Of a stretch of DNA of 64,000 nt, positions 11,015 to 31,697 are shown one piece after another. A program made the translations under genes and the position numbers. Source of the stretch: Motilibacter aurantiacus (GTDB taxonomy: Bacteria; Actinomycetota; Actinomycetes; Motilibacterales; Motilibacteraceae); assembly GCF_011250645.1 (NCBI RefSeq), contig NZ_JAANNO010000001.1, positions 518,658-582,657 on the forward strand, written 5' to 3'. Positions within the stretch are counted from its first letter, which is position 1. Every line of letters begins with the position of its first letter. Below the pieces are notes generated by a model that was given only the letters and a program-made list of their open reading frames with translations, searched no databases and had not been told where the DNA came from.

Positions 11015-11022
11015 GGCGCCCG

Positions 11023-12615
11023 TCAGCGGACGAAGGCCGCGGCGTCGCCGGCCAGGTCGAGGACGGGCTGAGGAATCACTCCGAGCACGAGAGTGACGGT
11101 AACGCCTAGCGCGAGCGCGACCGTCGTGAGGATGCTCGGAACGGCCACCGTGGGCCCGTCGGCGGCCGGCTCGCTGAAGAACATGAGCACGATGACGCGC
11201 ACGTAGAAGAACGCCGCCACGACCGAGGCGAGCACGGCCACGATCACCACCGGCGACGCCCCCCCGTCCAGCGCGGCGGAGAACACGGCGTACTTGCTCA
11301 TGAAGCCGGACGTCAGCGGGATGCCCGCGAACGAGAGCAGGAACAGTGCGAACGCGCCCGCGACCAGCGGGGACCGCCTCCCGAGCCCGGCCCACTGGGA
11401 CAGGTGGGTGGCCTCGCCGGCCGGGTCGCGCACCATCGTCACGACGGCGAACGCCCCGATCGTCGCGAAGCCGTAGGCGAGCAGGTAGAACAGCACGCCC
11501 CGCAGCCCGGCGTCGTCGGCCGCGAGCACCCCGACGAGCACGAAGCCGGCGTGGGCGATCGAGGAGTACGCCAGCATGCGCTTCACGTCCTGCTGGGTGA
11601 GCGAGATCACCGCGCCCACCAGCATGGTGAGGATCGCGACACCCCACATGAGGGGCCGCCACTCCCACCTCAGCCCGCCGAAGGCCACGTAGTAGATCCG
11701 CAGCAGCGCGCCGAAGGCCGCCACCTTGGTGCAGGCGGCCATGAACGCGGTGACCGCGGTCGGGGCGCCCTGGTAGACGTCGGGCGTCCACGCGTGGAAC
11801 GGCGCGGCGCCGGCCTTGAACAGCAGGCCGACGGTGACCAGCGCGACGCCGCTGAGCAGCAGCACGTCGCTGCCGGCGGCCTGGCTGGTCGCGTCGGCGA
11901 TCTCGGAGAGCCGCACCGAGCCGGCGTAGCCGTACAGCAGCGCGACGCCGTAGAGGAAGAAGGCCGACGAGAACGCCCCGAGCAGGAAGTACTTCATCGC
12001 GGCCTCCTGCGACAGCAGGCGGCGGCGCCGGGCGAGCCCGCAGAGCAGGTAGAGCGGGAGCGACAGCACCTCGAGCGCGACGAACGCCACGAGCAGGTCG
12101 TTGGCGGCCGGGAAGAGCAGCATGCCGCCGACGGCGAAGAGGGTCAGCGGGAAGACCTCGGTCTGCGCCGCCCCGGCACGCGTCACCTCCAGCTCGGCCG
12201 GCGAGCCGGGCACCGTCGAGGCCTGCGCGGCGAACGCGCCGCTCGGCCCCGGGTCGAGCCGGCGCTCGGCCAGCAGCAGCACGGCGACGAGGGCGAGCAG
12301 CAGGACGGTGCCCTGCAGGAACAGTGCGGGCCCGTCCACGGTGACCGCGCCCTCCGCGACGACCGCGTCCGCGCCCTTCCAGTCGTCCCCGGACGCCACC
12401 AGCACGACGGCGACGAAGGCGCCGACGAGCCCGAGCAGCGAGAGCCCGACCTGGATCCCCCAGCGCGCGGCCCGCGGGGCGAACGCCTCCACGAGGACGC
12501 CGAGGACCGCGGCGCCGAACACCACGAACAGCGGCGACAGGGCGCCGTACTCGATGTGCGGGGCGGGGATGCTGTCCGCGGCGGAGACCGCGGACACCCC
12601 GGCAAGGACCGTCAT
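11023..12615 (-). CDS. nuoN: NADH-quinone oxidoreductase subunit N
   Basis: Antiporter-like membrane subunit of complex I, 530 aa, with about 14 helices. Conserved parts are LLFKAGAAPFHAWTPDVYQGAPTAVTAFM with the mid-membrane lysine, and QQDVKRMLAYSSIAHAGFVLVG. It carries out one of the proton translocation steps at the distal membrane arm. ATG overlaps the nuoM stop (ATGA). A Pro/Gly-rich insert around residues 136-150 lies between early helices. Length is usual for actinobacterial NuoN. Confidence 0.95.
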   Translation of the reverse strand: MTVLAGVSAVSAADSIPAPHIEYGALSPLFVVFGAAVLGVLVEAFAPRAARWGIQVGLSLLGLVGAFVAVVLVASGDDWKGADAVVAEGAVTVDGPALFLQGTVLLLALVAVLLLAERRLDPGPSGAFAAQASTVPGSPAELEVTRAGAAQTEVFPLTLFAVGGMLLFPAANDLLVAFVALEVLSLPLYLLCGLARRRRLLSQEAAMKYFLLGAFSSAFFLYGVALLYGYAGSVRLSEIADATSQAAGSDVLLLSGVALVTVGLLFKAGAAPFHAWTPDVYQGAPTAVTAFMAACTKVAAFGALLRIYYVAFGGLRWEWRPLMWGVAILTMLVGAVISLTQQDVKRMLAYSSIAHAGFVLVGVLAADDAGLRGVLFYLLAYGFATIGAFAVVTMVRDPAGEATHLSQWAGLGRRSPLVAGAFALFLLSFAGIPLTSGFMSKYAVFSAALDGGASPVVIVAVLASVVAAFFYVRVIVLMFFSEPAADGPTVAVPSILTTVALALGVTVTLVLGVIPQPVLDLAGDAAAFVR

Positions 12616-14162
12616 CGCCCGTTCTCCTGCTCCGCCGTGGCCGGCACGGCCGGCGCCGGGTCGCCCTGGTTGACCGACTCCAACGTCCGCTCCACCGCCG
12701 GGTTGATGACGTCGAGGGCCAGCTGCGGCGCGACGCCGAGCCCGAGCAGCAGCGCGATCACCGGCGCCACGGCCCAGACCTCGCGGGCACGCAGGTCACG
12801 GAACCCCTCGACCGCCTTCGCCACGGGACCGGTCATCACCCGTTGGTAGACGATCAGGATGTAGAGCGCGGCGAGCACGATGCCGAGCGTCGCGACGATC
12901 GCCGCCACGGTGTAGCGGCCGTACGTCCCTGCGAGCACGAGGAACTCGCTGACGAAGCTGGAGAACCCGGGCAGCGCGAGGCTGGACAGGCCCGCCATGA
13001 GGAAGAGCCCGGCCAGGACCGGCGCCACGCGCTGCACACCGCCGAAGTCCGCGATCCGCCGCGAGCCTCGCCGGGAGGCGAGCATCCCCGCGAGCAGGAA
13101 GAGCGCGGCGGTCGAGAAGCCGTGGCTGAGCATGTAGAGCGTCGAGCCCGCCTGGCCCTGGGACGTCATCGCGAAGACGCCGAGCGCGATGAACCCGAAG
13201 TGCGACACGGAGGTGTACGCGATCAGCCGCATGAGGTCGACCTGGCCGATGGCGACCAGCGCCCCGTAGATCACACCGACGACGCAGAGCACGATCACGG
13301 CGGGCCGCGCCCACACCGACGCGTCCGGGAAGAGCGGCAGGCAGTACGCGATCATGCCGAAGGTGCCGATCTTGTCGAGCACGCCGACGAGCATGACCGC
13401 GCCACCGGGCGGCGCCTCGGACGCCGCGTCCGGCAGCCAAGTGTGCAGCGGCCAGAGCGGGGCCTTGATGGCGAACGCGATGAAGAACCCCAGGAAGAGC
13501 CAGCGCTGGGTCGTGGGGTCGATGGACGCGCCCTCGAGCGTGCTGCGCAGGAAGCCCTGCTCCCCGCCCGGCCCGGCGACGTAGAGGCCGATGACCGAAG
13601 CCAGCATCAGCAGTCCGCCGAGCAGCGAGTAGATCAGGAACTTGACCGCGGCGTACGAGCGCTGCGCGCCGCCGAAACCGCCGATGATGAAGTACATCGG
13701 GATGAGCACTGCCTCGAACAGCACGTAGAACAGGAAGACGTCCGTCGCCGCGAAGACCCCGACGAGGATGCCCTCCGTGGTCAGCATGAGCGCGAAGAAC
13801 GTCTGCACCCGCCGTGCCCCCTGCACCTCGGTGACGTCGTGCCACGAGGCCAGCAGGCAGACCGGTGTCAGCAGCGCGACGAGCGCGAGCAGCACCAGCG
13901 CGATGCCGTCGACGCCCAACGCATAGCTGACACCGAACTCAGGAATCCACCTGTGGTACTCGGTGAACTGGAAGGTGCCGGCCCCGTCGGTGTCGAACTG
14001 CAGGCCGATCGCCACGACGAGCGCGAGCACGATGAGGGAGACGGCGACCGCCAGCTGCTTGGCCAGCAGCTCACGGCCGCGCGGCACGGCGGCCACGGCC
14101 ACGGCGCCGACGAGGGGGACGGCGGCGAGCACGCTCAGCCAGGGGAACTCGGGATCGTTCAC
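12612..14162 (-). CDS. nuoM: NADH-quinone oxidoreductase subunit M
   Basis: Antiporter-like membrane subunit, 516 aa. Family signatures are FVLFEAVLIPMYFIIGGFGG with the essential glutamate, AFAIKAPLWPLHTWLPDAASEAPPGGAVMLVGVLDKIGTFG, and LMRLIAYTSVSHFGFIALG. It shares the proton-pump fold of NuoL and NuoN. It starts six bases after nuoL and its stop overlaps nuoN, in the standard nuo gene order. Confidence 0.96.
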   Translation of the reverse strand: MNDPEFPWLSVLAAVPLVGAVAVAAVPRGRELLAKQLAVAVSLIVLALVVAIGLQFDTDGAGTFQFTEYHRWIPEFGVSYALGVDGIALVLLALVALLTPVCLLASWHDVTEVQGARRVQTFFALMLTTEGILVGVFAATDVFLFYVLFEAVLIPMYFIIGGFGGAQRSYAAVKFLIYSLLGGLLMLASVIGLYVAGPGGEQGFLRSTLEGASIDPTTQRWLFLGFFIAFAIKAPLWPLHTWLPDAASEAPPGGAVMLVGVLDKIGTFGMIAYCLPLFPDASVWARPAVIVLCVVGVIYGALVAIGQVDLMRLIAYTSVSHFGFIALGVFAMTSQGQAGSTLYMLSHGFSTAALFLLAGMLASRRGSRRIADFGGVQRVAPVLAGLFLMAGLSSLALPGFSSFVSEFLVLAGTYGRYTVAAIVATLGIVLAALYILIVYQRVMTGPVAKAVEGFRDLRAREVWAVAPVIALLLGLGVAPQLALDVINPAVERTLESVNQGDPAPAVPATAEQENGR

Positions 14163-14168
14163 GCGCCG

Positions 14169-16121
14169 TCAGATCCTCACGAGGAGAAGGGCGCCGACCA
14201 CGAGGGCGGCGCCACCGAGCATGGACAGGGCGTAGCTGCGCACGAACCCGGTCTGCAGCCTGCGCAGCCGGCCGGAGGTTCCGCCCACGAGGGCGGCGAA
14301 GCCGTTCACCACGCCGTCCACGCCGCGGTTGTCCGCGTAGACCAGCGAGCGGGTGAGGTACTGGCCCGGGCGCATGAGCACGGCCTCGTTGACCGCGTCC
14401 TGGTAGAGGTCGCGCCGCGCGGCGATGGTGGCCGGGGAGCCCACCGGGGCGACGACCGGGACCTCGCGCCGCCCGTACTGCAGCCAGGCCCCCGCCGCGC
14501 CACCTGCCACGACGAGCAGCGTCAGCAGGGTCACGACGATGGGCGAGAGCGTCGTGACGCCCTCCTCCTCGCCGTGCCCGCCGACCACCGGCTCGAGCCA
14601 GTCCTGCAGCATGCCGCCGTACGCCAGCACCCCGCCGAGGAACACCGAGCCGAGCGCCAGCACGACCATCGGGGCGGTCATGACCGCCGGCGCCTCGTGC
14701 GGGTGGGCGTCGTCGGCCCAGCGGCGCGGGCCGAAGAAGGTCATCACCATCACGCGGGTCATGTAGAACGCGGTGATGCCGGCCCCGAGCAGCGCCACGA
14801 CGCCGAGCGTCCAGCCCTTGACACCGCCCTCGTGGAACGCGGTCTCGATGATCTTGTCCTTGCTCCAGAAGCCGGACAGCAGCGGGAAGCCGATGATCGC
14901 GAGGTAGCCGAGCCCGAAGGTCACGAAGGTCACCGGCATGACCGAGCGCAGCCCGCCGAAGCGGCGCATGTCGGTGGTGTCGTTCATTGCGTGCATGACG
15001 GACCCGGCGCCGAGGAAGAGCCCGGCCTTGAAGAAGCCGTGGGTCAGCAGGTGGAAGACCGCCACCGCGTACCCCGCCGGCCCGAGCCCGGCTGCGAGGA
15101 CCATGTAGCCGATCTGGCTCATCGTCGAGGCCGCGAGCGCCTTCTTGATGTCGTCCTTGGCCAGGCCGATCACGGCCCCGAAGACCAGCGTGACCGCGCC
15201 CACGATCGCCACGACCAGCTGTGCCGTGGGGGCGAGGTCGAAGATCGGCCCGGAGCGGACGATGAGGTAGACGCCGGCGGTGACCATCGTGGCGGCATGG
15301 ATGAGCGCCGAGACCGGCGTCGGGCCGGCCATGGCGTCGCCGAGCCAGGACTGCAGCGGCAGCTGCGCGGACTTGCCGCAGGCCGCCAGCAGGAGCAGCA
15401 GGCCGATGGCCGTGAGCGTCCCCTCGCCGGCCCCGGCCGCGGCGGCGTGCACCCGCACGAAGTCCGTGGCGCCGAAGGTGGTGAACATCAGGATGATCGC
15501 GAGCGACATGCCGACGTCGCCGACCCGGTTGGCGACGAACGCCTTCTTCGCCGCCGTGGCGTAGGCCGGGTTGCGCCCCCAGAACCCGATCAGCAGGTAC
15601 GACGCGAGGCCGACGCCCTCCCAGCCGATGTAGACCGTGAAGTAGTCCGACCCGAGGACGAGCAGCAGCATCGCCGCGACGAAGAGGTTGAGGTAGGCGA
15701 AGAACCGGCGCCGGTCGGGGTCGCGCGCCATGTAGCCGATCGAGTAGACGTGGATCAGCGTGCCGACGCCGGTGATGAGCAGCACGAACGCCATCGACAG
15801 CTGGTCCAGCTGCAGCGCGATGTCGACGTGGAAGCGCCCGACGTCGATCGCGGTCCAGAGCTTCTGGACCGTCGCGCGCTCGGCGGCGTCGCGCCCGATC
15901 ATGTCCAGCCAGAGCACCAGCGCCACGACGAAGGACGCCGCCGAGGCGAGCGTCCCGAGCAGGTGCCCGAACCCGTCCGTGCGGCGGCCGCCGAGCAGCA
16001 GGACCGTCGCCCCCGCGATCGGGAAGGCGAGCAGCAGCCACGTCAGGTCGGCGGTGCCGCTGGCCTGCGCCACGGACGCGGGCTCGGCGGCCGCCAGCAC
16101 CGGCGCGTACGGGAAGCTCAC
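14169..16121 (-). CDS. nuoL: NADH-quinone oxidoreductase subunit L
   Basis: Largest antiporter-like subunit, 650 aa. The family core [64 protein letters not shown] and [21 protein letters not shown] is intact. The C-terminal amphipathic lateral helix region is expected from about residue 520 onward. It is separated by 36 bases from nuoK, the largest gap inside the operon apart from nuoA-nuoB, so it may have its own ribosome binding site rather than stop-start coupling. Confidence 0.96.
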
Positions 16122-16157
16122 GTCGTCTCTCCGTCAGTCACTGCGGGTCCGTCCGTC

Positions 16158-16457
16158 TCAGTACTTGAGGAGGTTGGCGTCGTCGACCGAGGTGGACCGC
16201 CGCGTCCGGAAGATCGTCACGATGATGGCGAGCCCCACCACGACCTCCGCCGCGGCCACCACCATCACGAAGAACGCGATGACCTGGCCGTCGAGGTTGC
16301 CGTGGATGCGGGCGAAGGTGACGAAGGCCAGGTTGGTGGCGTTGAGCATCAGCTCCACGCACATGAAGACCACGATGGCGTTGCGCCGCAGCAGCACGCC
16401 TGCCGCGCCGATCGTGAAGAGGATCGCGGACAGGTACAGGTAGTTCTGCACGCCCAT
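16158..16457 (-). CDS. nuoK: NADH-quinone oxidoreductase subunit K
   Basis: Small three-helix membrane subunit, 99 aa, homologous to MrpC. The conserved glutamate lies in [16 protein letters not shown], and a second acidic position is in [13 protein letters not shown]. It is part of the proton path near the quinone-binding end of the membrane arm. ATG 16457 overlaps the nuoJ stop. Confidence 0.96.
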
Positions 16458-17296
16458 CAGTAGCGCCCTCCGTGCGGCGGCTCCGGGCGCACGTCCTCCG
16501 GCGCCTCTCCGGCCTCGAGCGACCGCTGCTCCGTGGCCTCGACCTCGGGGGCCGCCTCGCGGACGTCGCCGCGCGCCACGAGCACGCGGGACACCGACAG
16601 GTCCGCGGTGCTCCCGTCGGGCAGCAGCGCCGGGAAGTCGACGGCATTGTGCCGCGCGTACACGCCGGGGGGAGGCAGCGGGCCGGGGTGCTCGTCGGAG
16701 CGGAACCGTTCCTCCGACAGCTCGCGCTGGGTCTTGCGCGCCGTGAGCCGCTCGCGGTGCGCCAGCACCATCGCGCCGACGGCCGCGGTGATGAGCAGCG
16801 CGCTCGTCACCTCGAAGGCCAGCACGTAGTCGGTGAAGAGCAGCCGGGCGATGCCCTCGACGTTGCCGTCGGCGTTGGCCGCCCCGAGCCCGACGACCGT
16901 GACGTCGTCGAACGCGGCCGAGCCGAGGGCGCCCACGAGCAGCACGCCGAACCCCAGAGCGAGCAGCAGCCCGGTGAGCCGCTGCCCGCGCAGGGTCTCG
17001 ACCAGAGAGTCGCTGGAGTCGACGCCCACGAGCATGAGGACGAACAGGAAGAGCATCATCACGGCGCCGGTGTAGACGACGACCTGCACCACGCCGAGGA
17101 ACGGCCCGCTCTGGGCGAGGTAGAACACGGCGAGGACCATCATGGTCAGCGCGAGCAGCAGAGCCGAGTGGACCGCCTTGCGCACGAACAGCATCGCCAG
17201 CGCCGCGAGGACCGCGATCGGCCCCAGCACCCAGAAGCCGAACGCCTCGGCCCCCGAGGTCTGCTGGGCCGCGGCGAGCAGCGGGTCGGGGCTCAC
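16457..17296 (-). CDS. nuoJ: NADH-quinone oxidoreductase subunit J
   Basis: Membrane subunit of 279 aa with five helices in the first 165 residues. The family motif [23 protein letters not shown], in helix 3, includes the pi-bulge region known from complex I structures. A hydrophilic C-terminal tail of about 100 residues (from [18 protein letters not shown]) is much longer than in Escherichia coli and common in actinobacteria. GTG start overlaps the nuoI stop (GTGA); the stop overlaps nuoK. Confidence 0.95.
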
Positions 17297-17946
17297 AGCG
17301 GTGCCTCCTCGGCGGGCGTGACGATCGGCCGGCCCGCACGCTCGGCGGCGTACCGGATCTGGGCGTCGGTCGCCCCGGACACCCGGCCGCCGTAGTAGTC
17401 GTCCGCGTCTGTGCCCTCGACCATCGGGTGCGGCGCGGGCACCATGCCCGAGAGCATGGGGCCGAGCAGGTCCTGCTTCTCGAAGATGAGGTCGGCCCGT
17501 GAGGTGTCCGCCAGCTCGTACTCGTTGGTCATCGTGAGCGCGCGCGTGGGGCAGGCCTCGATGCACAGGCCGCAGAAAATACAGCGGAGGTAGTTGATCT
17601 GGTAGACGCGGCCGTAGCGCTCACCGGGGGAGTAGCGCTCCTCCTCGGTGTTGTCGGCGCCCTCGACGTAGATCGCGTCCGCCGGGCAGGCCCAGGCGCA
17701 GAGCTCGCAGCCGATGCACTTCTCCAGCCCGTCCGGGTAGCGGTTGAGCTGGTGCCGGCCGTGGAACCGCGGCGCGGTCGGCTTCTTCTCCTCGGGGTAC
17801 TGCTCGGTCACGACCTTCTTGAACATCGTCGAGAACGTGACGCCGAAGCCCTTGACCGGGTCGAGAGCGCCCGGCTGGGGGCGGTCCGCCCCGGCGGGGG
17901 CCGTCGTCCCGGCCGGACGGGTCGCGGGTGTGCGTTCCTCAGCCAC
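17293..17946 (-). CDS. nuoI: NADH-quinone oxidoreductase subunit I
   Basis: Peripheral-arm ferredoxin-like subunit carrying clusters N6a and N6b, 217 aa. The two 4Fe-4S motifs are [12 protein letters not shown] (C77, C80, C83, C87) and [12 protein letters not shown] (C122, C125, C128, C132). The first 30 residues are a low-complexity Ala/Pro/Thr extension. GTG 17946 is chosen because AGGAGGG stands about six bases upstream; it overlaps nuoH by eight bases. A start at 17982 would give 12 extra Arg-rich residues without such a site. Confidence 0.95.
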
Positions 17947-19261
17947 GGTCGCCCTCCTGCGCTGCGTCGGTCTCGGTCGCACGTCCCTGCTCGCCCGCGC
18001 GGGCCGCCCCGGCGTACGCCGGCTCGTCCGGGCCCTGGCCCGGCAGCGGGGGCACCGGGAAGCCCCCGGCGAAGGCGTCGCGCTGCGTGGGGGCCGTGCG
18101 CACCTGGAGCCGGGTGGACTCCCGGCGGGCGGCCACGGCGTCCCACACGAAGCTCAGCACCAGCCCGACGATCAGCACGCCGGCGAAGGTGAACAGCAGC
18201 GTGCGGGTGTCGACGTCGGTCTCGCGCCGCACGGTCATCACGGTCGCCAGCAGCACGATCCAGGCCAGCGAGGCCGGGATCAGCCCCTTCCAGCCCAGCT
18301 TCATGAACTGGTCGTAGCGCAGCCGGGGCAGGGTGCCGCGCAGCCACACGAACACGAAGATCAGCAGGACGACCTTCGAGACCCACCACAGCAGCGGCCA
18401 CCAGCCCTCGTTCGCCCCGTCCCACAGCGAGATGGGCCAGGGCGCGCGCCACCCGCCGAGGAACAGCGTCGTCGCGAGGGCGGAGACGTTGACCATGTTG
18501 ATGTACTCGGCGAGGAAGAACAGCGCGAACTTCAGCGACGAGTACTCCGTGTGGAAGCCGCCGACTAGCTCGCCCTCGGCCTCCGGCAGGTCGAACGGCG
18601 CCCGGTTCGTCTCGCCCACCATCGCGATGAGGTAGATCGCGAACGAGGGGAAGAGCAGGATGCCGTACCACCAGTCCGACTGCTGCGCGACGATCTCGGA
18701 CGTCGACATCGACCCGGCGACGAGGAAGACCGCGACGAACGACAGCCCCATCGCGATCTCGTAGGAGATCATCTGCGCCGACGAGCGCAACCCGCCCAGC
18801 AGCGGGTAGGTCGAGCCGCTGGACCAGCCGGCGAGCACGATCCCGTAGATCCCGACCGACGCGATGGCCAGGACGTAGAGCACGCCGACCGGGAAGTCGG
18901 CCAGCTGCAAGGTCGTCCGCTCGCCGAAGATCGAGACTTCCGGCCCGAACGGGATGACCGCGAAGGCCAGGAACGCCGGGGCCGTCGAGATGACAGGGGC
19001 GAGGAAGAAGACGACCTTGTCGGCGGTGCTCGGTGTCAGGTCCTCCTTGAACGCCAGCTTCACCCCGTCGGCGAGGGACTGCAGGCTGCCGAACGGGCCG
19101 TGCCGGTTCGGGCCGATGCGGTGCTGCATGCGGGCGACGACGCGCCGCTCGAACACGATGTTGAACAGCGTGATGAGGACGAGGAAGCCGAAGACGCAGA
19201 CCGCCTTGAAGGCGATGAGCCACCACGGGTCGTCGGCGAGCAGGCTCGCGGTGTCGTTCAT
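17939..19261 (-). CDS. nuoH: NADH-quinone oxidoreductase subunit H
   Basis: Membrane subunit forming the quinone chamber entrance, 440 aa. Conserved segments are [29 protein letters not shown] and [27 protein letters not shown], the loop lining the quinone site. A hydrophilic C-terminal tail of about 60 residues follows the last helix. ATG 19261 overlaps the nuoG stop (ATGA) and its own stop overlaps nuoI by eight bases. Confidence 0.96.
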
Positions 19262-21758
19262 GCCAACGCCCTTCCGGCAGCGGCGACGGAGACGACCGCC
19301 CCCGCGTCGACGCCGAGGGTGCGGCGCACCTGCGAGCCGACGGAGTTGGTCGGCACCCAGACGACCCGGTCGGGCATCTCGGTGACGAGCAGCGGCAGAG
19401 TGACCGACCCCGCTGCGGTCGAGACGCTCACCAGGCCGCCGGGCGGCACCCCCACCTCGGCGGCGGTCCCGGGTGACATCCGGGCGTACGCCGGCTTGGC
19501 AGTGGCCGCGAGGTGCGGCTCGCCGTCCTGCAGGCGCCCGAGGTCGAGCAGCTGGTGCCAGGTGGCGAGCACCGCCTGCCCGGCGACGGGGCGCGGCGGC
19601 TCGGGAACGGCGGATGCGGGCGCCGGCGCGGGCCGGCCCTCCCACCCGGCGAGCTCGGCCAGCTCGACGCGGGCCGCCTCCACGGTCGGCAGGCCGAGGC
19701 GTACGCCCATCTCCTCGGCGAGCGCGTCGAGCACGCGCAGGTCGGCCATGCTGGGCAGCGTCTGCTGCGGGTTGGCCAGCGCCGCCGCGAACGGGCGGGC
19801 TCGCCCTTCCCAGTCGACGAAGGTGCCGGCCCGCTCGGCGACCGGCGCGACGGGCAGCACCACGTCGGCCCGCTCGGTGACCGCGCTCGGCCGCATCTCC
19901 AGGCTCACCAGGAAGCCGGCCCGGTCCAGCGCGGCGAGCGCCTCGGCCGGCGAGGGCAGGTCGTACGGGTCCACCCCGCCCACGACGAGGCCGCCGAGCT
20001 GGCCGGCGGCGGCCGCGCGCAGGATGGCGGAGGTGTCGCGCCCCGGCGTGGCCGGGAGCCGGCCGCCCTCGTGCAGCGCGAGCCCCCACGTGGCAGCGAC
20101 GTCGATCCGAGCCTCGGCGTCGTCGACGGGGCGGCCACCGGGCAGCAGCGTCGGCAGCGCTCCGGCCTCCAGCGCCCCGCGCTCCCCCGCGCGGCGCGGC
20201 ACCCACGCGACCCGGGCGCCGGTCGCGCCGACCAGCCGGGCCACGGCGGACAGCGCGCCCGGAGCGGCGGCCAGCCGCTCGCCGACGAGCACGACCGCGC
20301 CGGGCGCGCGCAGCAGCGCGCCCAGCTCGGCGAGCTCGCCGTCCGGTGCGGCGATCACGTCGAGCACCTCGGCCTCGGTGCCCGGTGCGGACGGGACGAG
20401 CTGCCCCGAGAGCTTGTCCAGGCCGCGCGTCCGCCAGGGGGCGACGGCCAGGACCCTGAGCCGGCTCTTCCGGACGGCCTTGCGCAGCCGGAGGAAGACG
20501 ATGGGCGACTCCTCCTCCGGCTCGAGGCCGGCGAGCAGCACCGCGGGCGCCGCCTCCAGGTCGGCGTACGTGACCGACCCGGCGCGCCCGAGCGTGCGGC
20601 CGGCGACGTGCGAGCCGAGGAAGGCCGTCTCCTCCGCCGAGTGCGGACGGGAGCGGAAGTCGACGTCGTTGGTTCCGAGGGCCAGCCGGGCGAACTTCGC
20701 GTAGCCGTAGGCGTCCTCCTGGGTGACGCGGCCGCCCAGCAGCACGCCGACCCCGCCGCTCGCGCGGGCGGAGAGCAGCCCGCGGGCCGCGACGTCGAGG
20801 GCGTCGGCCCAGGAGGTGGGGACGAGCTCGCCGTTGTCGCGCACCAGCGGGGTGGTGATGCGGTCGGGCTGCGCGGCGTAGCGGAAGGCGAACCTGCCCT
20901 TGTCGCAGTTCCACTCCTCGTTGACCTGCGGCTCGTCGCCGGCGAGCCGGCGCTGCACGGCCCCGCGACGCACGTCGGTGCGCAGCGCGCAGCCGGAGGC
21001 GCAGTGCTCGCACGCGGTCGGCGTGGACACCAGGTCGAACGGGCGCGCGCGGAAGCGGTAGTCCGCCGAGGTGAGCGCGCCGACCGGGCAGATCTGGATG
21101 GTGTTGCCGGAGAAGTAGGACTCGAACGGCTGCTCGGCGTAGATGCCGACCTGCTGGAGCGCGCCACGCTCCAGCATCTCGATGAACGGGTCGCCGGCTA
21201 CCTGGTTGGAGAAGCGGGTGCAGCGCGCGCAGAGGACGCAGCGCTCGCGGTCGAGCAGCACCTGCGCCGAGATCGGCACCGGCTTCGGGTAGGTCCGCTT
21301 GACGCCGTCGAAGCGCGACTCCGGACGCCCGTTCGTCATCGCCTGGTTCTGCAGCGGGCACTCCCCGCCCTTGTCGCACACCGGGCAGTCGAGGGGGTGG
21401 TTGACGAGCAGCAGCTCCATCACGCCCTTCTGCGCCTTGTCGGCCACGGGCGAGGAGAGCTGGGTGCGCACGACCATCCCCGGCGCGACCGTCGTGGTGC
21501 AGGAGGCCGCCGGCTTCGGCATCCCCCGCCCGTTGCCCGCGTCCGGGACCTCGACCAGGCACTGCCGGCAGGCCCCGACGGGGTCCAGCAGCGGGTGGTC
21601 GCAGAACCGCGGGATCGCGATGCCGAGCATCTCGGCGGCCCGGATGACGAGGGTCCCCTTGGGGACGCTCACCTCGAAGCCGTCGATGGTCAGCGTGACC
21701 AGCTCTTCGTGCTTCTGCACGTCCCCGCCGCTGCCGGCGGGCGTGCTCGTCGTGACGG

Positions 21759-21762
<4 letters not shown>
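19258..21762 (-). CDS. nuoG: NADH-quinone oxidoreductase subunit G
   Basis: Large iron-sulfur subunit, 834 aa. An N-terminal 2Fe-2S domain ([15 protein letters not shown], later ASC) is followed by [13 protein letters not shown] and CVLCARC for clusters N4/N5. A further C-x2-C-x3-C-x27-C set, starting at CEHCASGC and ending in EEWNCDKGR, matches the ligands of the off-pathway cluster N7. The rest is a divergent molybdopterin-oxidoreductase-like region without cofactor motifs. The C-terminal half is strongly Ala/Gly-rich. Overlaps nuoF and nuoH by four bases each. Confidence 0.95.
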
Positions 21763-23074
<1,312 letters not shown>

Positions 23075-23078
<4 letters not shown>

Positions 23079-23901
23079 GTGCTCTTGCCTCCCTCGCTGG
23101 AGCTCTCGTCCGGGGCACTGCCGGGCGTCGGGTTGGCCGGGTCGGACGTCGCCGTGCTCAGCGGCGCGTCGTCCCCGCTGGGGCCTCCGCGCGGGCCGTA
23201 GCCCGAGACGGGGACGCCCGCGTCGCCGGCGTGGCCCCCGTCCGCGTTGGGGTGCGGGGCCGACCAGCCGTGCGCGCGCGCGAGCCGCAGCCCGGCGAGC
23301 GTCGCCGGGCCGGCACCGACCCCCGTGTCGGCGAGGCCGTCCTCGAAGCCGGCCAGGACCCGCTCGACCTGCTTGAAGGTGCAGAGCCGCGACGCGCCGC
23401 GCGTGGGGGCGGGCGGGTCGCCGGCGCGCAGCCGGTCGACGAGGTCGACGGCGCCCTGCGGGGTGACGTTGTCGAAGAACTCCCAGTTGACCATCACCAC
23501 GGGGGCGTAGTCGCAGGCGGCGTTGCACTCGATGTGCTCGAGGGTGACCTTGCCGTCCGGCGTCGTCTCGTCGGTCCCGACACCGAGGTGCTGCTCGAGC
23601 CGGGCGAGGATCTCGTCGCCGCCGAGGACGGCGCAGAGGGTGTTGGTGCACACCCCCACGCTGTAGTCGCCGTTGGGCCGGCGCTTGTACATGGTGTAGA
23701 AGGTCGCGACCGCGCTGACCTCCGCGGTCGTCAGGTCGAGCCAGCGGGCGCAGAGCTCGATGCCCTGCGGGCTGACGTAGCCCTCCTCGGACTGCACCAG
23801 GTGCAGCAGCGGCAGCAGGGCCGACCGCGGCCGGGGGTAGCGGGCGATGACCTCCTTGGCGTCGAGCTCGAGCCGGGAGAGCACGTCGGCGGACAGGGCC
23901 A

Positions 23902-23902
<1 letters not shown>
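23075..23902 (-). CDS. nuoE: NADH-quinone oxidoreductase subunit E
   Basis: Thioredoxin-fold subunit with cluster N1a, 275 aa. Ligands are C85 and C90 (CTNTLC) and C126 and C130 (CNAAC). The conserved core ends near residue 190; an additional tail of about 85 residues rich in Gly, Pro, Ser and Ala has no recognised domain and is low complexity. ATG 23902 overlaps the nuoD stop by one base. Tail extensions are seen in other actinobacterial NuoE. Confidence 0.95.
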
Positions 23903-25283
<1,381 letters not shown>

Positions 25284-25287
<4 letters not shown>

Positions 25288-26060
25288 CCGGAGTACGACC
25301 TCCGCTCGTCCGGCGGCGGGATCTGGGCGCCCTTGTACTCCACCGGGATGCCGCCGAGGGGGTAGTCCTTGCGCTGCGGGTGCCCGGGCCAGTCGTCCGG
25401 CATCAGGATCCGGGTCAGGGCCGGGTGGCCGTCGAAGACGATGCCGAACATGTCCCAGGCCTCGCGCTCGTGCCAGTCGTCCGTGGGGTAGACGGCCACC
25501 GCGCTGGGGACGTGCGGGTCCGCGTCCGGGCACGTCGTCTCGACGCGCACCCGCCGGTTGTGGGTGATGGACAGCAGCGGCCACGTGACGTGCAGCTCGC
25601 GGCCCGTGTCCTCCGGGTAGTGGACGCCGGTCGCCCCGAGGCAGAGCTCGAAGCGGAGCGCGGCGTCGTCCCGCAGCACCCGCAGCACCTCGACGACGTG
25701 CTCACGGCGTACGACGAAGGTCAGCTCACCGCGGTCGACGACCACGCGCTCGAGCGCCTCGTCGAGCTGCGGGTACGCACGCTCCAGGGCGTCCGCGACG
25801 ACGTCGAACGTCCCGCCGTACGGGCGCTCGGACGCGCCGGGCATCTGCACCCGGCGGACGATGCGGCCGTAGCCGGTGGTGTCACCGCCGCTGCGGCCGC
25901 CGAACATTCCGCGACGGGTCTGGAAGACCTCGTTCGGCACCCCGCTCGCGGTGGGGCTGGGCTGCGCCTCGAGCTGCTGCCCGGCGTCCTTGGCCTCGAG
26001 GGGCGAGCCCTCGGTGCGGTCGGTGACCGAGCGGCGCGCGCTGTCGCTGGGCTCGCTCAC
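25284..26060 (-). CDS. nuoC: NADH-quinone oxidoreductase subunit C
   Basis: 30-kDa-type subunit, 258 aa. The signature [44 protein letters not shown] is complete. Roughly the first 65 residues form a polar extension ([18 protein letters not shown] onward) found in actinobacterial homologues. GTG 26060 overlaps the nuoB stop. It links NuoB and NuoD in the peripheral arm. Confidence 0.96.
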
Positions 26061-26611
26061 CGCAGCAGGCCCTTCAGCTCCGATGTCGGCGCGCTCGTCA
26101 GCGCCAGCCGCTCGGCCTCGTGCTCCTCGCGGACCCGGTTCACCCCGAGCTTGGAGTGTTGGATCTTGTCGTGCAGCGTGAGGATCGCGTCGAGCAGCAT
26201 CTCCGGCCGCGGCGGGCACCCGGGCAGGTAGACGTCGACCGGGACGATGTGGTCGACGCCCTGCACGATGGCGTAGTTGTTGAACATCCCGCCGCTGGAG
26301 GCGCAGACGCCCATCGCCAGCACCCACTTGGGGTTGGCCATCTGGTCGTAGATCTGTCGCAGGACCGGTGCCATCTTCTGGCTCACCCGCCCGGCCACGA
26401 TCATCAGGTCCGCCTGCCGCGGGGACGCACGGAAGACCTCCATGCCGAAGCGCGCGCTGTCGTAGCGCGGGCCGCCGGTCGTCATCATCTCGATGGCGCA
26501 GCAGGCCAGGCCGAACGTCGCCGGCCACAGGGACGCCTTGCGCACCCAGCCCGCGGCGGCCTCGACCGTCGTCAGCAGAAAACCGCTCGGAAGCTGCTCT
26601 TCGAGGCCCAT
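26057..26611 (-). CDS. nuoB: NADH-quinone oxidoreductase subunit B
   Basis: Subunit carrying terminal cluster N2, 184 aa. N2 ligands are C37 and C38 in [11 protein letters not shown]103 in [11 protein letters not shown] and C132 in [10 protein letters not shown]. It donates electrons to menaquinone at the NuoB/NuoD interface. It starts 31 bases after nuoA, where GGAAGGACG-type purine-rich sequence lies upstream, and its stop overlaps nuoC. Confidence 0.97.
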
Positions 26612-26642: not shown

Positions 26643-26999
26643 TCAGTCCCACTCGAGGCCGCCGCGACGCCACACATAGGCGAACGCGACGAACACGGTG
26701 GCGATGAAGAGCACCATCTCGATCAACCCGAACAGGGCGAGGCTGTCGAAGGCCACGGCCCAGGGGTAGAGGAAGACGATCTCGATGTCGAAGATGATGA
26801 AGAGCATCGCGGTGAGGTAGTACTTCACCGGGAAGCGCCCGCCGCCGGCCGGCTGCGGCGTCGGCTCGATGCCGCACTCGTACGCCTGGAGCTTGGCTCG
26901 GTTGTAGCGCCGGGGCCCGGTGAGGGCGCCCGCCACGACGGAGAAGACCGCGAATCCGAACGCGAGACCGCCCAGCCAGGCGATGGGTACCCAGTCCAC
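26643..26999 (-). CDS. nuoA: NADH-quinone oxidoreductase subunit A
   Basis: Small three-helix membrane subunit, first gene of the operon, about 118 aa. Signatures are YECGIEPTPQP in the TM1-2 loop and RFPVKYYLTAMLFIIFDIEIVFLYPWAV. GTG 26999 is preferred because the AGGAGG nine bases upstream would otherwise sit inside the coding sequence; an ATG at 27017 gives a six-residue longer form. Together with nuoB-N it encodes the complete complex I. Confidence 0.93.
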   Translation of the reverse strand: MDWVPIAWLGGLAFGFAVFSVVAGALTGPRRYNRAKLQAYECGIEPTPQPAGGGRFPVKYYLTAMLFIIFDIEIVFLYPWAVAFDSLALFGLIEMVLFIATVFVAFAYVWRRGGLEWD

Positions 27000-27055
27000 G
27001 AGCCGCTCCCTCCTCATCGAGTTCCGCCGCGTGGCCCCGCCGGGCCCGGGCCGGA

Positions 27056-27083
27056 ACTATACGGATTCGACCGGCGCTGTCCG
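27056..27083 (-). promoter_or_regulatory. Putative promoter of the nuo operon
   Basis: Minus-strand -35-like CGGACA (27078-27083), 16-base spacer and -10 TATAGT (27056-27061). Transcription would start near 27049, giving a leader of about 50 bases that contains the AGGAGG of nuoA. The -10 is strong for this GC content; the -35 matches 4 of 6. Confidence 0.45.
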
Positions 27084-27145: not shown

Positions 27146-28423
27146 TCATGCGGCCGGAGCCACCTTCGTCATGGCGGTGATGACGCGGTCCATCGCGTCG
27201 CCGCCCTTCGGGTCCGTGAGATTGGCGAGAAGCTTGAGCGTGAAGCGCATGAGCAGCGGGTGCGGCAGCCCGTGCCGCGTCGCCAGCCGCATGACGCGCG
27301 GGTCGCCGATGAGCTTCACGAAGACCCGGCCGAGGGTGTAGTAGCCGCCGTAGGTCTCCTTGAGCGCCCGCGGGTAGGCGCTGAGCGCCAGCTCGCGGCC
27401 GGGCCCCTCCGGGCGCGCCAGCGCCTGCGCGGCGACCTCGGCGGCCATCGCGCCGGACTCCATCGCGTACGCGATGCCCTCGCCGTTGAACGGGTTGACC
27501 ATGCCGCCGGCGTCCCCGACCAGCATCAGGCCACGGGTGTAGTGCGGCTGGCGGTTGAAGCCCATGGGCAGCGCGGCGCCGCGCACCGGGCCGACGCGGT
27601 TCTCCTCGCGCAGGCCCCACTCCTCCGGGGTCGTCTCGGTCCACCGCTTGAGGAGAGCCTTGTAGTCGACCTTGCCCCAGGCGCTGGAGGTGTTGAGGAC
27701 GCCGAGCCCGACATTGCTCGTGCCGTCGCCCATGCCGAACACCCAGCCGTAGCCGGGCAGCAGGTCGTCGCCCTCCCAGAGCTCCAGCCACGACTCGAGC
27801 CAGTCGTCGTCGTGGCGCCGGGAGGTGTAGTAGGTGCGGACCGCCACGCCCATCGGGCGGTCCTCGCGCTTGTGCAGGCCGACCGCGAGCGAGAGCCGCG
27901 AGGAGTTGCCGTCGGCCGCCAGCACCAGCGGCGCGCGGGCCTCGAGCGGCTCGCCCTCCGGGCCGGTGGCGGTGACGCCGATGACGCGGCCGGTGCGCTC
28001 GTCGAGGACCGGCCCGGTGACCGTGGTCCGCTCCGCGAGGCGGGCGCCGGCCTTCTGCGCGGTGCGTGCGAGCAGCTCGTCGAAGTCCTCGCGGCGCCGG
28101 ACGAGGCCGTAGGGCGGGAAGCTGGCCAGCTCCGGCCACGGGAGCTCGAGCCGCATGCCGCCGCCGAGGATGCGCAGGCCCTTGTTGTGCAGCCAGCCGG
28201 CCTCGGGGCTGGTGTCGATGCCCATGCGCACGAGCTGGGCGACCGCGCGGGGGGTGAGCCCGTCACCGCAGACCTTCTCGCGGGGGAACGCGGTCTTCTC
28301 CAGCAGCAGGACGTCCACCCCGGCCCGGGCCAGGTGGTAGGCGGCGGTCGAGCCCGCCGGCCCGGCTCCCACGACGATGACATCCGCGGTCGTCGAACCC
28401 GCGATGCCGGCCGTGTCGCTCAC
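27146..28423 (-). CDS. Geranylgeranyl reductase family FAD-dependent oxidoreductase (likely MenJ-type)
   Basis: Flavoprotein of 425 aa. The Rossmann motif VIVVGAGPAGSTAAYHLA is at residues 16-31, EKVCGDGLTPRAV follows at about 50-62, and the second FAD motif MLVGDAGGMVNPFNGEGIAYAMESG is in the C-terminal half. Members reduce isoprenoid double bonds of geranylgeranyl chains or of the menaquinone tail (MenJ). Its place between menG/menD and nuoA favours tail reduction of menaquinone. GTG start with GGAGG five bases upstream. A perfect CRP/GlxR-type site lies 24 bases upstream of the start. Confidence 0.88.
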   Translation of the reverse strand: MSDTAGIAGSTTADVIVVGAGPAGSTAAYHLARAGVDVLLLEKTAFPREKVCGDGLTPRAVAQLVRMGIDTSPEAGWLHNKGLRILGGGMRLELPWPELASFPPYGLVRRREDFDELLARTAQKAGARLAERTTVTGPVLDERTGRVIGVTATGPEGEPLEARAPLVLAADGNSSRLSLAVGLHKREDRPMGVAVRTYYTSRRHDDDWLESWLELWEGDDLLPGYGWVFGMGDGTSNVGLGVLNTSSAWGKVDYKALLKRWTETTPEEWGLREENRVGPVRGAALPMGFNRQPHYTRGLMLVGDAGGMVNPFNGEGIAYAMESGAMAAEVAAQALARPEGPGRELALSAYPRALKETYGGYYTLGRVFVKLIGDPRVMRLATRHGLPHPLLMRFTLKLLANLTDPKGGDAMDRVITAMTKVAPAA

Positions 28424-28446
28424 GAGAACCTCCGGTCATGTGCGCT

Positions 28447-28462
28447 TGTGAACTGCTTCACA
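28447..28462 (-). promoter_or_regulatory. CRP/GlxR-type binding site upstream of the geranylgeranyl reductase gene
   Basis: TGTGAACTGCTTCACA is an exact match to TGTGA-N6-TCACA, the site bound by cAMP-CRP family regulators, including actinobacterial GlxR and Crp. Outer GCGC flanks extend the symmetry to 26 bp with one mismatch. A TAGAGT -10-like hexamer at 28479-28484 would place the site downstream of the transcription start, i.e. in a repressing position; another start would change that. Confidence 0.6.
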
Positions 28463-28501
28463 TGCGCCCGATGCCGGAACTCTAACTCTCGAGCCTGCCT
28501 C

Positions 28502-28535
28502 GCGCGGGGCGGGGTGAGCTACCCGCGCCCCGCGC
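28502..28535 (-). terminator. GC-rich hairpin after the CsbD gene
   Basis: Arms GCGCGGGGCGGGGT and ACCCGCGCCCCGCGC, with one bulged base, close a five-base loop. It lies 54 bases downstream of the small CsbD gene on the minus strand and upstream of the reductase gene. No U-tract. Confidence 0.5.
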
Positions 28536-28588
28536 GCCGCGCCCACGCGGTGCTCGCCGTCGGGAGGCCGCGGGGACGCGGGGGCGGG

Positions 28589-28762
28589 TCAGCCCTTGAA
28601 GACGTCCTTGACCTTCTCGCCGGCCTGCTTGAGGTCGGCCTTCGCCTGGTCCCCCTGGCCCTCGGCCTGCAGGTCCGGGTTGTCGGTGGCGTCGCCGTAG
28701 GCCTCCTTGGCCTGGCCACCGAGCTTGTCCGTCGCGTTCGAGATCTTGTCGCTGAGTCCCAT
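28589..28762 (-). CDS. CsbD family small stress protein
   Basis: 57 aa, too short for many gene finders. The sequence MGLSDKISNATDKLGGQAKE, then a Gly/Asp-rich middle, and a C-terminal QAKADLKQAGEKVKDVFKG is the classic CsbD pattern (two amphipathic helices rich in Lys, Ala, Gly). CsbD-like proteins accumulate under general stress; molecular role unknown. There is no convincing Shine-Dalgarno in front of the ATG. It sits between menG and the reductase gene and may be transcribed alone, with the hairpin at 28502-28535 as terminator. Confidence 0.8.
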   Translation of the reverse strand: MGLSDKISNATDKLGGQAKEAYGDATDNPDLQAEGQGDQAKADLKQAGEKVKDVFKG

Positions 28763-28838
28763 GGAGGTGTCCTACCCGCGGGCCCGCTCGATCCATGCCT
28801 GGCCGGGTGGCCCTGCCGCGGCAAGGGCGACGGCGGGC

Positions 28839-29546
28839 CTACGAGAGCGGCTTGCGCCCGCGGTGCAGCGCGACGATGCCACCGGTGAGGTCGCGCCACT
28901 CCACCTCGGCCCAGCCCGCGGCCGCCACCCGGCGGGCGAGCCCCTCCTGCGCCGGCCAGTCCGCGATCGACTCGGCCAGGTACGCGTACGCCGGGCCGTT
29001 CGTGCCGACACGGCGGGCCACCCGCGGCAGGGCGCGCATGAGATAGCCGGAGTAGACGGCCCGGAAGGGGCGGAAGGTCGGCGTGCTGAACTCGCAGACG
29101 ACGAGGCGGCCGCCGGGGCGGGTGACCCGGAGCAGCTCCCGCAGCGCACGGTCGGTGTCGGAGACGTTGCGCAGGCCGAAGGAGATGGTGACCGCGTCGA
29201 AGGCTCCGTCCCGGAAGGGCAGCGCGAGCGCGTCGGCGGCGGTGAACGCCAGGCCCCGCGTCCCCGATCGCCGGGCGTGCCCGGCTCGCAGCATGCCCAA
29301 CGAGAAGTCGGCGGCGACCACCTGCGCCCCGGCCGCGGCGAACGGCAGGGCCGAGGTCCCGGTGCCGGCGGCCAGGTCGAGCACCCGGTCGCGCGGCCGC
29401 GGGTCGACCGCGCGCAGCACGGCCCGCCGCCAGAGCCGGTCCTGCCCGAGGGACAGCACCCCGTTCGCCAGGTCGTAGCGGGGAGCCACGTCGTCGAACA
29501 TCGCCGAGACGTCGTGCGGGTCCTTGTCGAGGTCGGCTCGGCTCAT
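28839..29546 (-). CDS. menG: Demethylmenaquinone methyltransferase
   Basis: SAM-dependent C-methyltransferase of the UbiE/MenG family, 235 aa, last step of menaquinone synthesis. SAM motif I is [10 protein letters not shown] (residues 55-64); also [24 protein letters not shown] at the N-terminus and [15 protein letters not shown] plus [19 protein letters not shown], all diagnostic. The start ATG 29546 has CGGGGA immediately upstream. It lies downstream of menD in the same direction, separated by about 410 bases without a clear gene. Confidence 0.94.
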
Positions 29547-29927: not shown

Positions 29928-29976
29928 AGCCGAGGACGGCGTCGGCCGACGAGCGCCTCAGCCGAGGACGGCGTCG
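29928..29976. repeat. 17-bp direct repeat copying the menD 3' end
   Basis: AGCCGAGGACGGCGTCG occurs at 29928-29944 and again at 29960-29976. The second copy includes most of the menD stop and its last codons; the first lies just beyond the gene. Unit spacing is 32 bases. It suggests a small local duplication or a former longer gene end. Confidence 0.8.
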
Positions 29977-31697
29977 ACCGCGGCGTGCAGACGGTCGTGG
30001 ACGCCGGGCGTCGCCTGCCGGTCCACGCGCACCTCGACCACCCGGATCCCGAGGCCGGGCTCCAGCGCGAGCTCGAGCTCGTCGGCGGAACGGGCTCGCA
30101 CGTACGGCGTGGACGTGGCCGAGCACAGAGCTCGGAGGTCGACACCGTGGGGCGTGCCGAACACCCGCTCGAACGGCACGGACAGCTCGGGGGCGCCCTG
30201 CTCGAGCAGGCCGAAGATGCCGCCACCGTCGTCGTTCACCACGACGATGGTGAGCCCGGGCAGCGGCTCGCCCTTCCCGATGACGAGAGCCGTAGCGTCA
30301 TGCAGGAACGTGAGGTCACCCATCAGTGCGTACGCCGGGCCGCCACCGGCGCGCTGGTGCCCCAGCGCGGCGCCGATCGCGGTGGACACCGTGCCGTCGA
30401 TACCGGAGACCCCCCGGTTCGCGAGCACCCGCGCGGGCTGGAGCACCCAGGACCCCACGTTGTCCAGGTCCCGCACCGGGTTGCTCGACCCGACGACGAG
30501 CAGCCCGTCACCGGGGACGTTGCCGGCCACCGCCTGCGCGATGTGGAAGCCGGAGGGCCAGGGCTCCTTGCGCAGCACCGCGGACACGGCATTGGCCACG
30601 GACTCGCCGGCCACGCGCCACGCTTCGGCGAAACCCTCTTCGCCCTTCACCGGATCGTCGGCGATGAAGGACCACTCCGGGTGCACCGCGAACGCCGGCC
30701 CGGTCAGCAGCGCGGGCGGGAGCACCGTCTCCGCGGTCGTCGCCGGGTCGGGCCAACGCGGGGAGCCCGCGACGACGTCGACCGCGACACCGGGTGTGCG
30801 CAGCAGCTCCGTCACTGCCCGCGAGAGCGTCGGCCGGCCGACGAGCAGCACCCGCTCCGGCCGGTTGACACGGACGAAGTCCTCGGCGGCGAGCAGCAGC
30901 GAGGGCAGCGCGGCGTTGCCGAGGCCGGCCGACGGCTCGGCGACGATCGGCCAGTCGCGCTCGCCGGCGAGCCGGAGCGCCCCCTGGGCGAGGGCCGGGG
31001 CGCAGTCCCCGACCAGGACGAGGGTGCGAGGGGCGCCGGCGTAGGGCGGCACCGCACCGGTGGCGCGCCCGACCGCGGCCCACGGAGCGCCGTCGGGGCG
31101 GCCGTCCAACGGCTCGACCCAATCGTCGGCCCCCGACGGCACGAGCGGCTCCCGGAAGGCCACGTCGATGTGGACCGGGCCCGGGTCCTCGTCGAGCCGT
31201 CCGCACGAGGTCGCGAGCGCGCGTGCCGTCAGGGCCCGCCACCACCGGACCTGGCCGGTCCGGGAGTCAGGCGCAGGCACGACGAAGGATTCACGAACGG
31301 CCGATCCGTAGACCGAGCGCTGGTCGACGAGCGTCTGGTTCGCCCCCACCCCGCGCATCTCCACCGGCCGGTCGGCGGTCAGCGCGAGCACCGGCACGCT
31401 GGAGTAGGACGCTTCGAGCACCGCGGGGTGCAGGTTGGCGGTGGCCGTCCCCGACGTCGTGACCACCGGCACCGGGAGCCCTGAGGCCTTCGCCAGGCCG
31501 AGCGCGAGGAAGCCGGCGGTGCGCTCGTCGATCCGGACGTGCAGCCGGAGCAGGCCGCGCGCCTCTGCGGCGTGCAGGGCGTACGCGAGGGGAGCCGAGC
31601 GCGACCCCGGGGAGAGGACCGCCTCCTGGACGCCGCCCCGCACGAGCTCGTCGACGAGGACGGTCGCGAGCGCCTCGGCGGGCGTCATGACCGGCAC
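29958..31697 (-). CDS. menD: 2-succinyl-5-enolpyruvyl-6-hydroxy-3-cyclohexene-1-carboxylate synthase
   Basis: Thiamine-diphosphate enzyme of menaquinone synthesis, 579 aa, joins 2-oxoglutarate and isochorismate. The N-terminal SPGSRSAPLAYAL and RIDERTAGFLALGLAKASGLPVPVVTTSGTATANLHPAV (ThDP-activating glutamate in DER) and the C-terminal GDLTFLHD...VVVNDDGGGIFGLL Mg/ThDP motif are all intact. GTG 31697 has GGAG nine bases upstream; ATG 31688 is an alternative. It reads leftward toward menG and away from menC, 87 bases apart. Confidence 0.95.
   Translation of the reverse strand: MPVMTPAEALATVLVDELVRGGVQEAVLSPGSRSAPLAYALHAAEARGLLRLHVRIDERTAGFLALGLAKASGLPVPVVTTSGTATANLHPAVLEASYSSVPVLALTADRPVEMRGVGANQTLVDQRSVYGSAVRESFVVPAPDSRTGQVRWWRALTARALATSCGRLDEDPGPVHIDVAFREPLVPSGADDWVEPLDGRPDGAPWAAVGRATGAVPPYAGAPRTLVLVGDCAPALAQGALRLAGERDWPIVAEPSAGLGNAALPSLLLAAEDFVRVNRPERVLLVGRPTLSRAVTELLRTPGVAVDVVAGSPRWPDPATTAETVLPPALLTGPAFAVHPEWSFIADDPVKGEEGFAEAWRVAGESVANAVSAVLRKEPWPSGFHIAQAVAGNVPGDGLLVVGSSNPVRDLDNVGSWVLQPARVLANRGVSGIDGTVSTAIGAALGHQRAGGGPAYALMGDLTFLHDATALVIGKGEPLPGLTIVVVNDDGGGIFGLLEQGAPELSVPFERVFGTPHGVDLRALCSATSTPYVRARSADELELALEPGLGIRVVEVRVDRQATPGVHDRLHAAVDAVLG

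Follow-up and report, generated by a model that had tools for sequence, protein, structure and literature searches.

Gene order around the menJ-like gene

The window, i.e. the whole stretch of 64,000 nucleotides that was analysed, carries a gene for a geranylgeranyl-reductase-family FAD enzyme (menJ-like) between menaquinone genes and a run of complex I genes. The features of this locus are listed below in descending order of coordinates.

29958-31697, minus strand: menD (TIGR00173, 364.9 bits against a cut-off of 244.2)
28839-29546, minus strand: menG, demethylmenaquinone methyltransferase (NF001241, 367.6 bits against a cut-off of 327)
28590-28763, minus strand: small ORF in the menG-menJ interval (from the sequence)
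28495-28545, minus strand: G+C-rich hairpin 5' of the menJ promoter (-37.8 kcal/mol)
28479-28484, minus strand: predicted -10 of the menJ promoter, TAGAGT (from the sequence and the conserved placement of TANNNT)
28442-28467, no strand assigned: extended inverted repeat of 26 bp with GCGC flanks (from the sequence and column counts in relatives)
28446-28463, minus strand: candidate Rex operator (ROP), ATGTGAAGCAGTTCACAA on the menJ strand (one mismatch to TTGTGAAN4TTCACAA; conserved at 83 of 105 loci)
28429-28433, minus strand: Shine-Dalgarno sequence GGAGG (from the sequence)
28421-28423, minus strand: GTG start codon of the menJ-like gene (from the sequence)
27146-28423, minus strand: menJ-like gene, geranylgeranyl-reductase-family FAD enzyme (Pfam FAD_binding_3; TIGR02032)
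27056-27083, minus strand: promoter-like CGGACA-16-TATAGT in the menJ-nuoA gap (from the sequence)
26643-27017, minus strand: nuoA, which opens the complex I run (Oxidored_q4, E 2.8e-36)
11023-26611, minus strand: further complex I (nuo) genes, partly typed (Pfam)
9986-11791, minus strand: ORF with a polyprenyl synthetase domain, after the last nuo gene (PF00348, E 1.6e-57, residues 308-549)

The menJ-like protein scored 277.3 bits with TIGR02032, the geranylgeranyl reductase subfamily (cut-off, 158.8), and 257.5 bits with the MenJ equivalog NF045655, which is below the cut-off of 700. Since menD and menG lie upstream and nuo genes and a polyprenyl synthetase gene lie downstream, all on one strand, the gene probably encodes a menaquinone-tail reductase. 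A reading of this DNA made from the sequence alone (the sequence-only reading) had presented it as a MenJ candidate; the protein family and the menaquinone/complex I neighbourhood agree with that proposal, while the MenJ name itself was not borne out by the score. MenJ of Mycobacterium tuberculosis (Rv0561c) belongs to the same geranylgeranyl reductase family and presumably also lies in a men gene neighbourhood, but the gene here falls far under the NCBI MenJ equivalog cut-off. The homologue in G007, a genome that appears to be mycobacterial, showed 38% identity to the menJ-like protein.

nuoA follows the menJ-like gene after about 130 bp. Pfam profiles matched in the remaining nuo run were Oxidored_q6, Complex1_30kDa, Complex1_49kDa, 2Fe-2S_thioredx, Complex1_51K, Oxidored_q3, those of a Molybdopterin/Fer4_Nqo3 protein and three Proton_antipo_M, and the ORFs at 17808-19226 and 16138-16647 had no profile match at E 1e-10. 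The ORF at 9986-11791 probably encodes a quinone-tail synthase, and its real start is probably internal to the listed ORF. The complex I genes and the probable genes for making and reducing the quinone tail form one same-strand run. The small ORF at 28590-28763, which we take to be CsbD-like, gave no match with NCBIfam profiles.

The hairpin at 28495-28545 had a z of -2.74, with 2 of 200 shuffles folding equally well. It showed no T run and no terminator-like match, and it may terminate transcription of the preceding genes. A TANNNT was present in 51 of 85 menJ-nuoA gaps as compared to 23 of 255 coding windows, and CGGACA-16-TATAGT in the gap here is a possible separate nuoA promoter without a ROP. 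In view of the TANNNT in these gaps, menJ and the nuo genes may be transcribed either together or separately.

The palindrome at the menJ promoter

Positions 28442-28467 read GCGC-T-TGTGAACTGCTTCACA-T-GCGC on the plus strand, and TGTGAACTGCTTCACA (28447-28462) matches TGTGA-N6-TCACA exactly; both the match at every consensus base and the GCGC flanks had been described correctly from the sequence alone. No other match with up to one mismatch was found in the window. When the window was shuffled 100 times, such matches with up to one mismatch occurred 0.56 times on average and at least once in 44 of the shuffles, so that the number of matches in the window is compatible with chance. Three exact matches were found in the whole genome (4.59 Mb) and none with the reversed-pattern control. 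The other two (G000:C1:799536-799551 and G000:C7:125636-125651) do not have the inner bases of Rex sites and appear, from their letters, to be better CRP candidates than the menJ site.

The GCGC flank bases were enriched among relatives, but their constraint in column counts was far below that of the core. Symmetric flanks were rejected as a part of the operator, being only weakly above shuffles (the four pairs were reached by 69, 88, 429 and 1741 of 2000). Upstream of menJ in L240 (family f20) and L238 (f18), the ROP of 18 bp is bordered by recurring arms of the GCGC type or the AGT/ACT type; it might be guessed that such flanking arms are additional Rex contacts.

On the menJ strand, the 18 bp at 28446-28463 read TTGTGAA-CTGC-TTCACAT, which has one mismatch to the ROP, TTGTGAA-N4-TTCACAA. 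The ROP of Streptomyces coelicolor is given as TGTGAACNNNTTCACA, and all bases of the menJ site fit this form (PMC5355995). In Streptomyces avermitilis, the nuoA1 operator TTGTGACCTGCTTCACAT was DNase-footprinted with Rex, the nuoA1 transcript was raised in the rex mutant, and 17 of the 18 bases of this operator are identical to the menJ site (PMC5355995). The nuoA1-N1 system resembles the present locus also in the complex I neighbourhood and in the repression by promoter occupancy that we propose here, but the ROP at nuoA1 covers the -35 region, whereas the site here lies 5' of the menJ-like gene and 3' of the -10 (PMC5355995). The operator of cydA1B1CD in S. avermitilis lies downstream of the transcription start, as is predicted for the menJ site, the Rex footprint at cydA1 spans -3 to +25, and the menJ site of one relative (G003) is letter-identical to the cydA1B1CD ROP (PMC5355995). 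The target gene is different, however, and cydA was discarded as a Rex target here, as neither of the two cydA loci in the genome scanned carried a ROP at up to 4 mismatches.

TAGAGT begins 21 bp before the 18-bp operator. At 81 of the 83 conserved sites (see below), and in 24 of 24 families, a TANNNT starts 13 to 25 bp upstream of the ROP, as compared to 11 of 913 background windows. The transcription start would be at about 28472, with the operator just downstream. Since an operator 13 to 25 bp 3' of the -10 lies over the start region, its placement points to repression. The earlier suggestion of repression, made from the position relative to TAGAGT, is thus supported by the conserved placement.

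One rex gene was found in the genome (PF06971, E 2.5e-18). The Rex protein scored 357.9 bits with the NCBIfam Rex equivalog (cut-off, 226), and among eight solved relatives, seven carry the label Rex and one that of 'AT-rich DNA-binding protein'. The genome also codes for a CRP/GlxR-type protein (C1:831154-832161); among its best solved relatives are 3i54, 3d0s and 4byy, which we take to be M. tuberculosis CRP and Corynebacterium glutamicum GlxR. Because the genome encodes both regulators, gene content is not decisive between Rex and CRP.

Conservation of the site and the choice of regulator

The upstream DNA of the menJ-like gene was compared among relatives. The gene was matched in 29 of 30 relatives sampled and, at E <= 1e-120, in 99 of 158 genomes of the class; from the 59 class genomes without such a match, only G007 and G024 were counted, which came from the 30-relative search and whose weak homologues (37-38%) were retained. 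The 107 rows gave 105 upstream regions after leaving out L126 and L129, whose 5' end is missing; in place of L118 and L128, stretches that extend further around these genes (L271 and L272) were used. The count does not include G086, where the gene is partial, or G042:C17, a second copy of 52%; G033 and G096 were counted twice, and G018, G019, G025 and G027 came from the 30-relative search only. A ROP was called when it had up to two mismatches and lay within 350 bp 5' of the menJ-like gene.

A ROP was found 5' of the menJ-like gene at 83 of 105 loci, in 24 of 31 families, while 200 permutations of the half-sites reached at most 1 of 105 loci. It is this conservation, and not the number of matches in the window, that gives the site its evidential weight. 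The rest of the same loci (466,754 bases) contained four ROP matches, all starting 53 to 108 bp before nuoA. GTGAA and TCAC did not vary in any of the 68 distinct sites, the inner T failed once, and the four central bases were free.

The sequence-only reading had assigned the palindrome to CRP/GlxR and to cAMP-linked control by carbon or oxygen status; on this view, a cAMP-bound CRP-type protein would repress menJ and make quinone chemistry respond to the carbon or energy state of the cell. TGTGA-N6-TCACA is presumably also the skeleton of GlxR/CRP sites in Mycobacterium. The menJ site shares this skeleton with the GlxR/CRP sites of Corynebacterium and matches exactly the consensus stated for GlxR, in which the six central positions are open (PMC7999487). 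A CRP-type protein is encoded, and the site is present in related genomes; these were the two points at which the sequence-only reading had proposed to check its claim, and neither of them separates Rex from CRP. The conservation does. The GlxR consensus of Corynebacterium puts no constraint on the six central positions (PMC7999487), but at 82 of 83 menJ sites the first and last of these six were kept, i.e. the inner AA/TT pair of GTGAAN4TTCAC that Rex needs. The T at the outer end of the CRP consensus, in contrast, was replaced by C in 44 of the 68 distinct sites. Strict TGTGA-N6-TCACA was retained in 20 of 83 sites. In addition, all 13 genomes tested for CRP have it, among them G010 and G026, which lack both Rex and the site. 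CRP/GlxR was accordingly rejected as the main explanation on the basis of conservation and appears very improbable in that role, although it may still be a second binder. A site with both functions was also considered, in which Rex is the conserved regulator and the copy of this lineage is additionally read by CRP, thereby sensing NADH/NAD+ plus cAMP. TGTGA is present on both arms in this copy and in that of the congener G001, and the genome encodes both regulators, but 20 of the 83 sites carry TGTGA in the two arms, and this is inside the variation of the ROP; with no sign of CRP-specific selection found, this dual use seems rather unlikely.

The inverted repeat lies within the predicted 5' leader, and its transcript can pair in a 10-pair stem with one internal mismatch, which would suit an element acting as an mRNA hairpin. 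The fold, however, was no better than that of shuffles, 45 of 200 of which did as well (z -0.68), and positions 2 and 17 are C-A in 28 of 83 sites; the hairpin was rejected on these two grounds. Moreover, the site lies anywhere between 17 and 258 bp from the start codon, whereas the -10 stays 13 to 25 bp upstream of the site. An RNA element was judged the least probable of the explanations, with hardly any chance of being correct.

These results suggest that the palindrome serves the redox-sensing repressor Rex as an operator at the promoter of the menJ-like gene, an interpretation to which we give a probability of about 0.92. Rex is preferred over CRP because the inner pair is held in 82 of 83 sites, the outer T drifts in 44 of 68, the motif also stands before rex, and 17 of 18 bases are shared with a footprinted ROP. 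The signal at the menJ site would then most likely be NADH/NAD+ and not cAMP. The claim that CRP/GlxR regulates the gene through cAMP was therefore not upheld, whereas the more general claim, that quinone chemistry is tied to respiratory status, retains the support of an operator at the reductase promoter beside complex I genes, with NADH as the probable signal in place of cAMP.

The occurrence of the site was compared with that of Rex. Among genomes with rex, 81 had the site and 18 did not; among those without, one had it and three did not (p = 0.026, with few Rex-lacking genomes, one of the three without either being represented by a distant homologue only, 37%). The Rex-lacking genome with a site is G064, a 380-contig assembly in which no Rex was found; its congeners G016 and G038 have both. 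G010 and G026 have neither Rex nor the site and kept CRP. In G010, the TAGACT -10 and the adjacency of menJ and nuoA are kept and the operator is missing (L117), which is possibly a natural loss of the operator. In G027 and G073 (menJ 56% identical), Rex is present and menJ adjoins nuoA, yet no site was found. The site was missing, at up to two mismatches, in 22 of 105 upstream regions, 13 of which belong to family f19. nuoA was in the sequence for two of the 13 f19 genomes, and both carry a ROP at nuoA; judged by this nuoA site, the f19 genomes would be Streptomyces-like.

Placement of the proposed operator and its implications

The position of the operator was examined in relation to gene layout in 80 named loci, among which Streptomyces predominates; 41 of the loci include nuoA and 39 do not. 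In 6 of the 41 loci (two Actinopolymorpha and four metagenome assemblies), nuoA lies 93 to 159 bp after menJ and a ROP is present at menJ only. In the other 35, titled Streptomyces, Wenjunlia or Streptacidiphilus, nuoA lies 542 to 2746 bp from menJ and a ROP is present at nuoA only, starting 47 to 144 bp upstream. None of the 41 loci had a ROP at both genes or at neither. No menJ site was found in 74 of the 80 named loci, 39 of which had no nuoA in the sequence examined. In the class set, where nuoA lay less than 500 bp from menJ, the menJ site was present at 82 of 85 loci. A second site with two to three mismatches was found at nuoA in 4 of 13 genomes of family f17.

In the model that we infer, which extends to Rex binding and release, the direction of control, read-through into nuo and menaquinone as the substrate, Rex would bind the 18-bp ROP just 3' of the -10 when NADH/NAD+ is low, cover the start region and block the menJ-like promoter. 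When NADH rises, under oxygen limitation or with an excess of reductant, Rex would be released and the tail reductase would be made; read-through from the Rex-controlled promoter would perhaps make the nuo genes as well. If nuoA has a promoter of its own, the reductase becomes the main Rex target. We tentatively propose, as a possibility with somewhat more against it than for it, that in most of the sampled families with the gene next to nuoA, Rex acts on the menaquinone/complex I cluster through the reductase promoter as its dedicated target and the nuoA promoter is separate and operator-free. If this were true, cells would alter menaquinone tail saturation with NADH/NAD+, and control would act on quinone chemistry beyond the amount of complex I.

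Partially saturated menaquinone tails have long been used as a taxonomic marker of actinobacteria and, to our knowledge, the physiological control of this saturation is little understood. A conserved site through which the reductase promoter probably responds to NADH offers a direct test, namely whether the hydrogenation state of menaquinone tracks NADH/NAD+ through Rex. Moreover, a ROP can satisfy the CRP consensus perfectly, and scans for CRP motifs in actinobacteria may thus collect Rex sites. Rex operators at nuo are already known (PMC5355995). No report of a Rex operator at the reductase gene, where we see the motif in some two dozen families of actinobacteria, was found in a literature search combining Rex with menaquinone, geranylgeranyl reductase or nuo in Actinobacteria, the scope of which did not extend to subscription papers and regulon databases, where it may have been noticed before; no mention of ROP, nuo or menaquinone was found in the accessible portion of a paper on Rex of Saccharopolyspora (PMC4172946).

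A ROP with up to three mismatches was found 5' of rex at 20 of 26 loci, including the own locus, and at 24 of 27 further loci of the class, which fits the expectation for an autoregulated repressor. The own rex gene has a degenerate ROP (three mismatches) at its 5' end, and the listed ORF begins at a TTG within that ROP; the true start is probably further inside the listed ORF.

Across the whole genome, 11 sites matched the ROP with up to three mismatches as compared to 2 for the reversed control; four of the 11 lie inside likely coding frames, and one was left out of this comparison. At one mismatch, only two sites were found, those of menJ and serA. The latter (G000:C2:296583-296600; L133:5584-5601) begins 73 bp 5' of serA, the product of which is presumably 3-phosphoglycerate dehydrogenase. 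A ROP with up to two mismatches was found 5' of serA at 5 of 29 loci (G000, G001, G012, G020 and G024), two of the 29 having no upstream DNA, and these sites suggest that Rex may be sporadically tied to serine synthesis.
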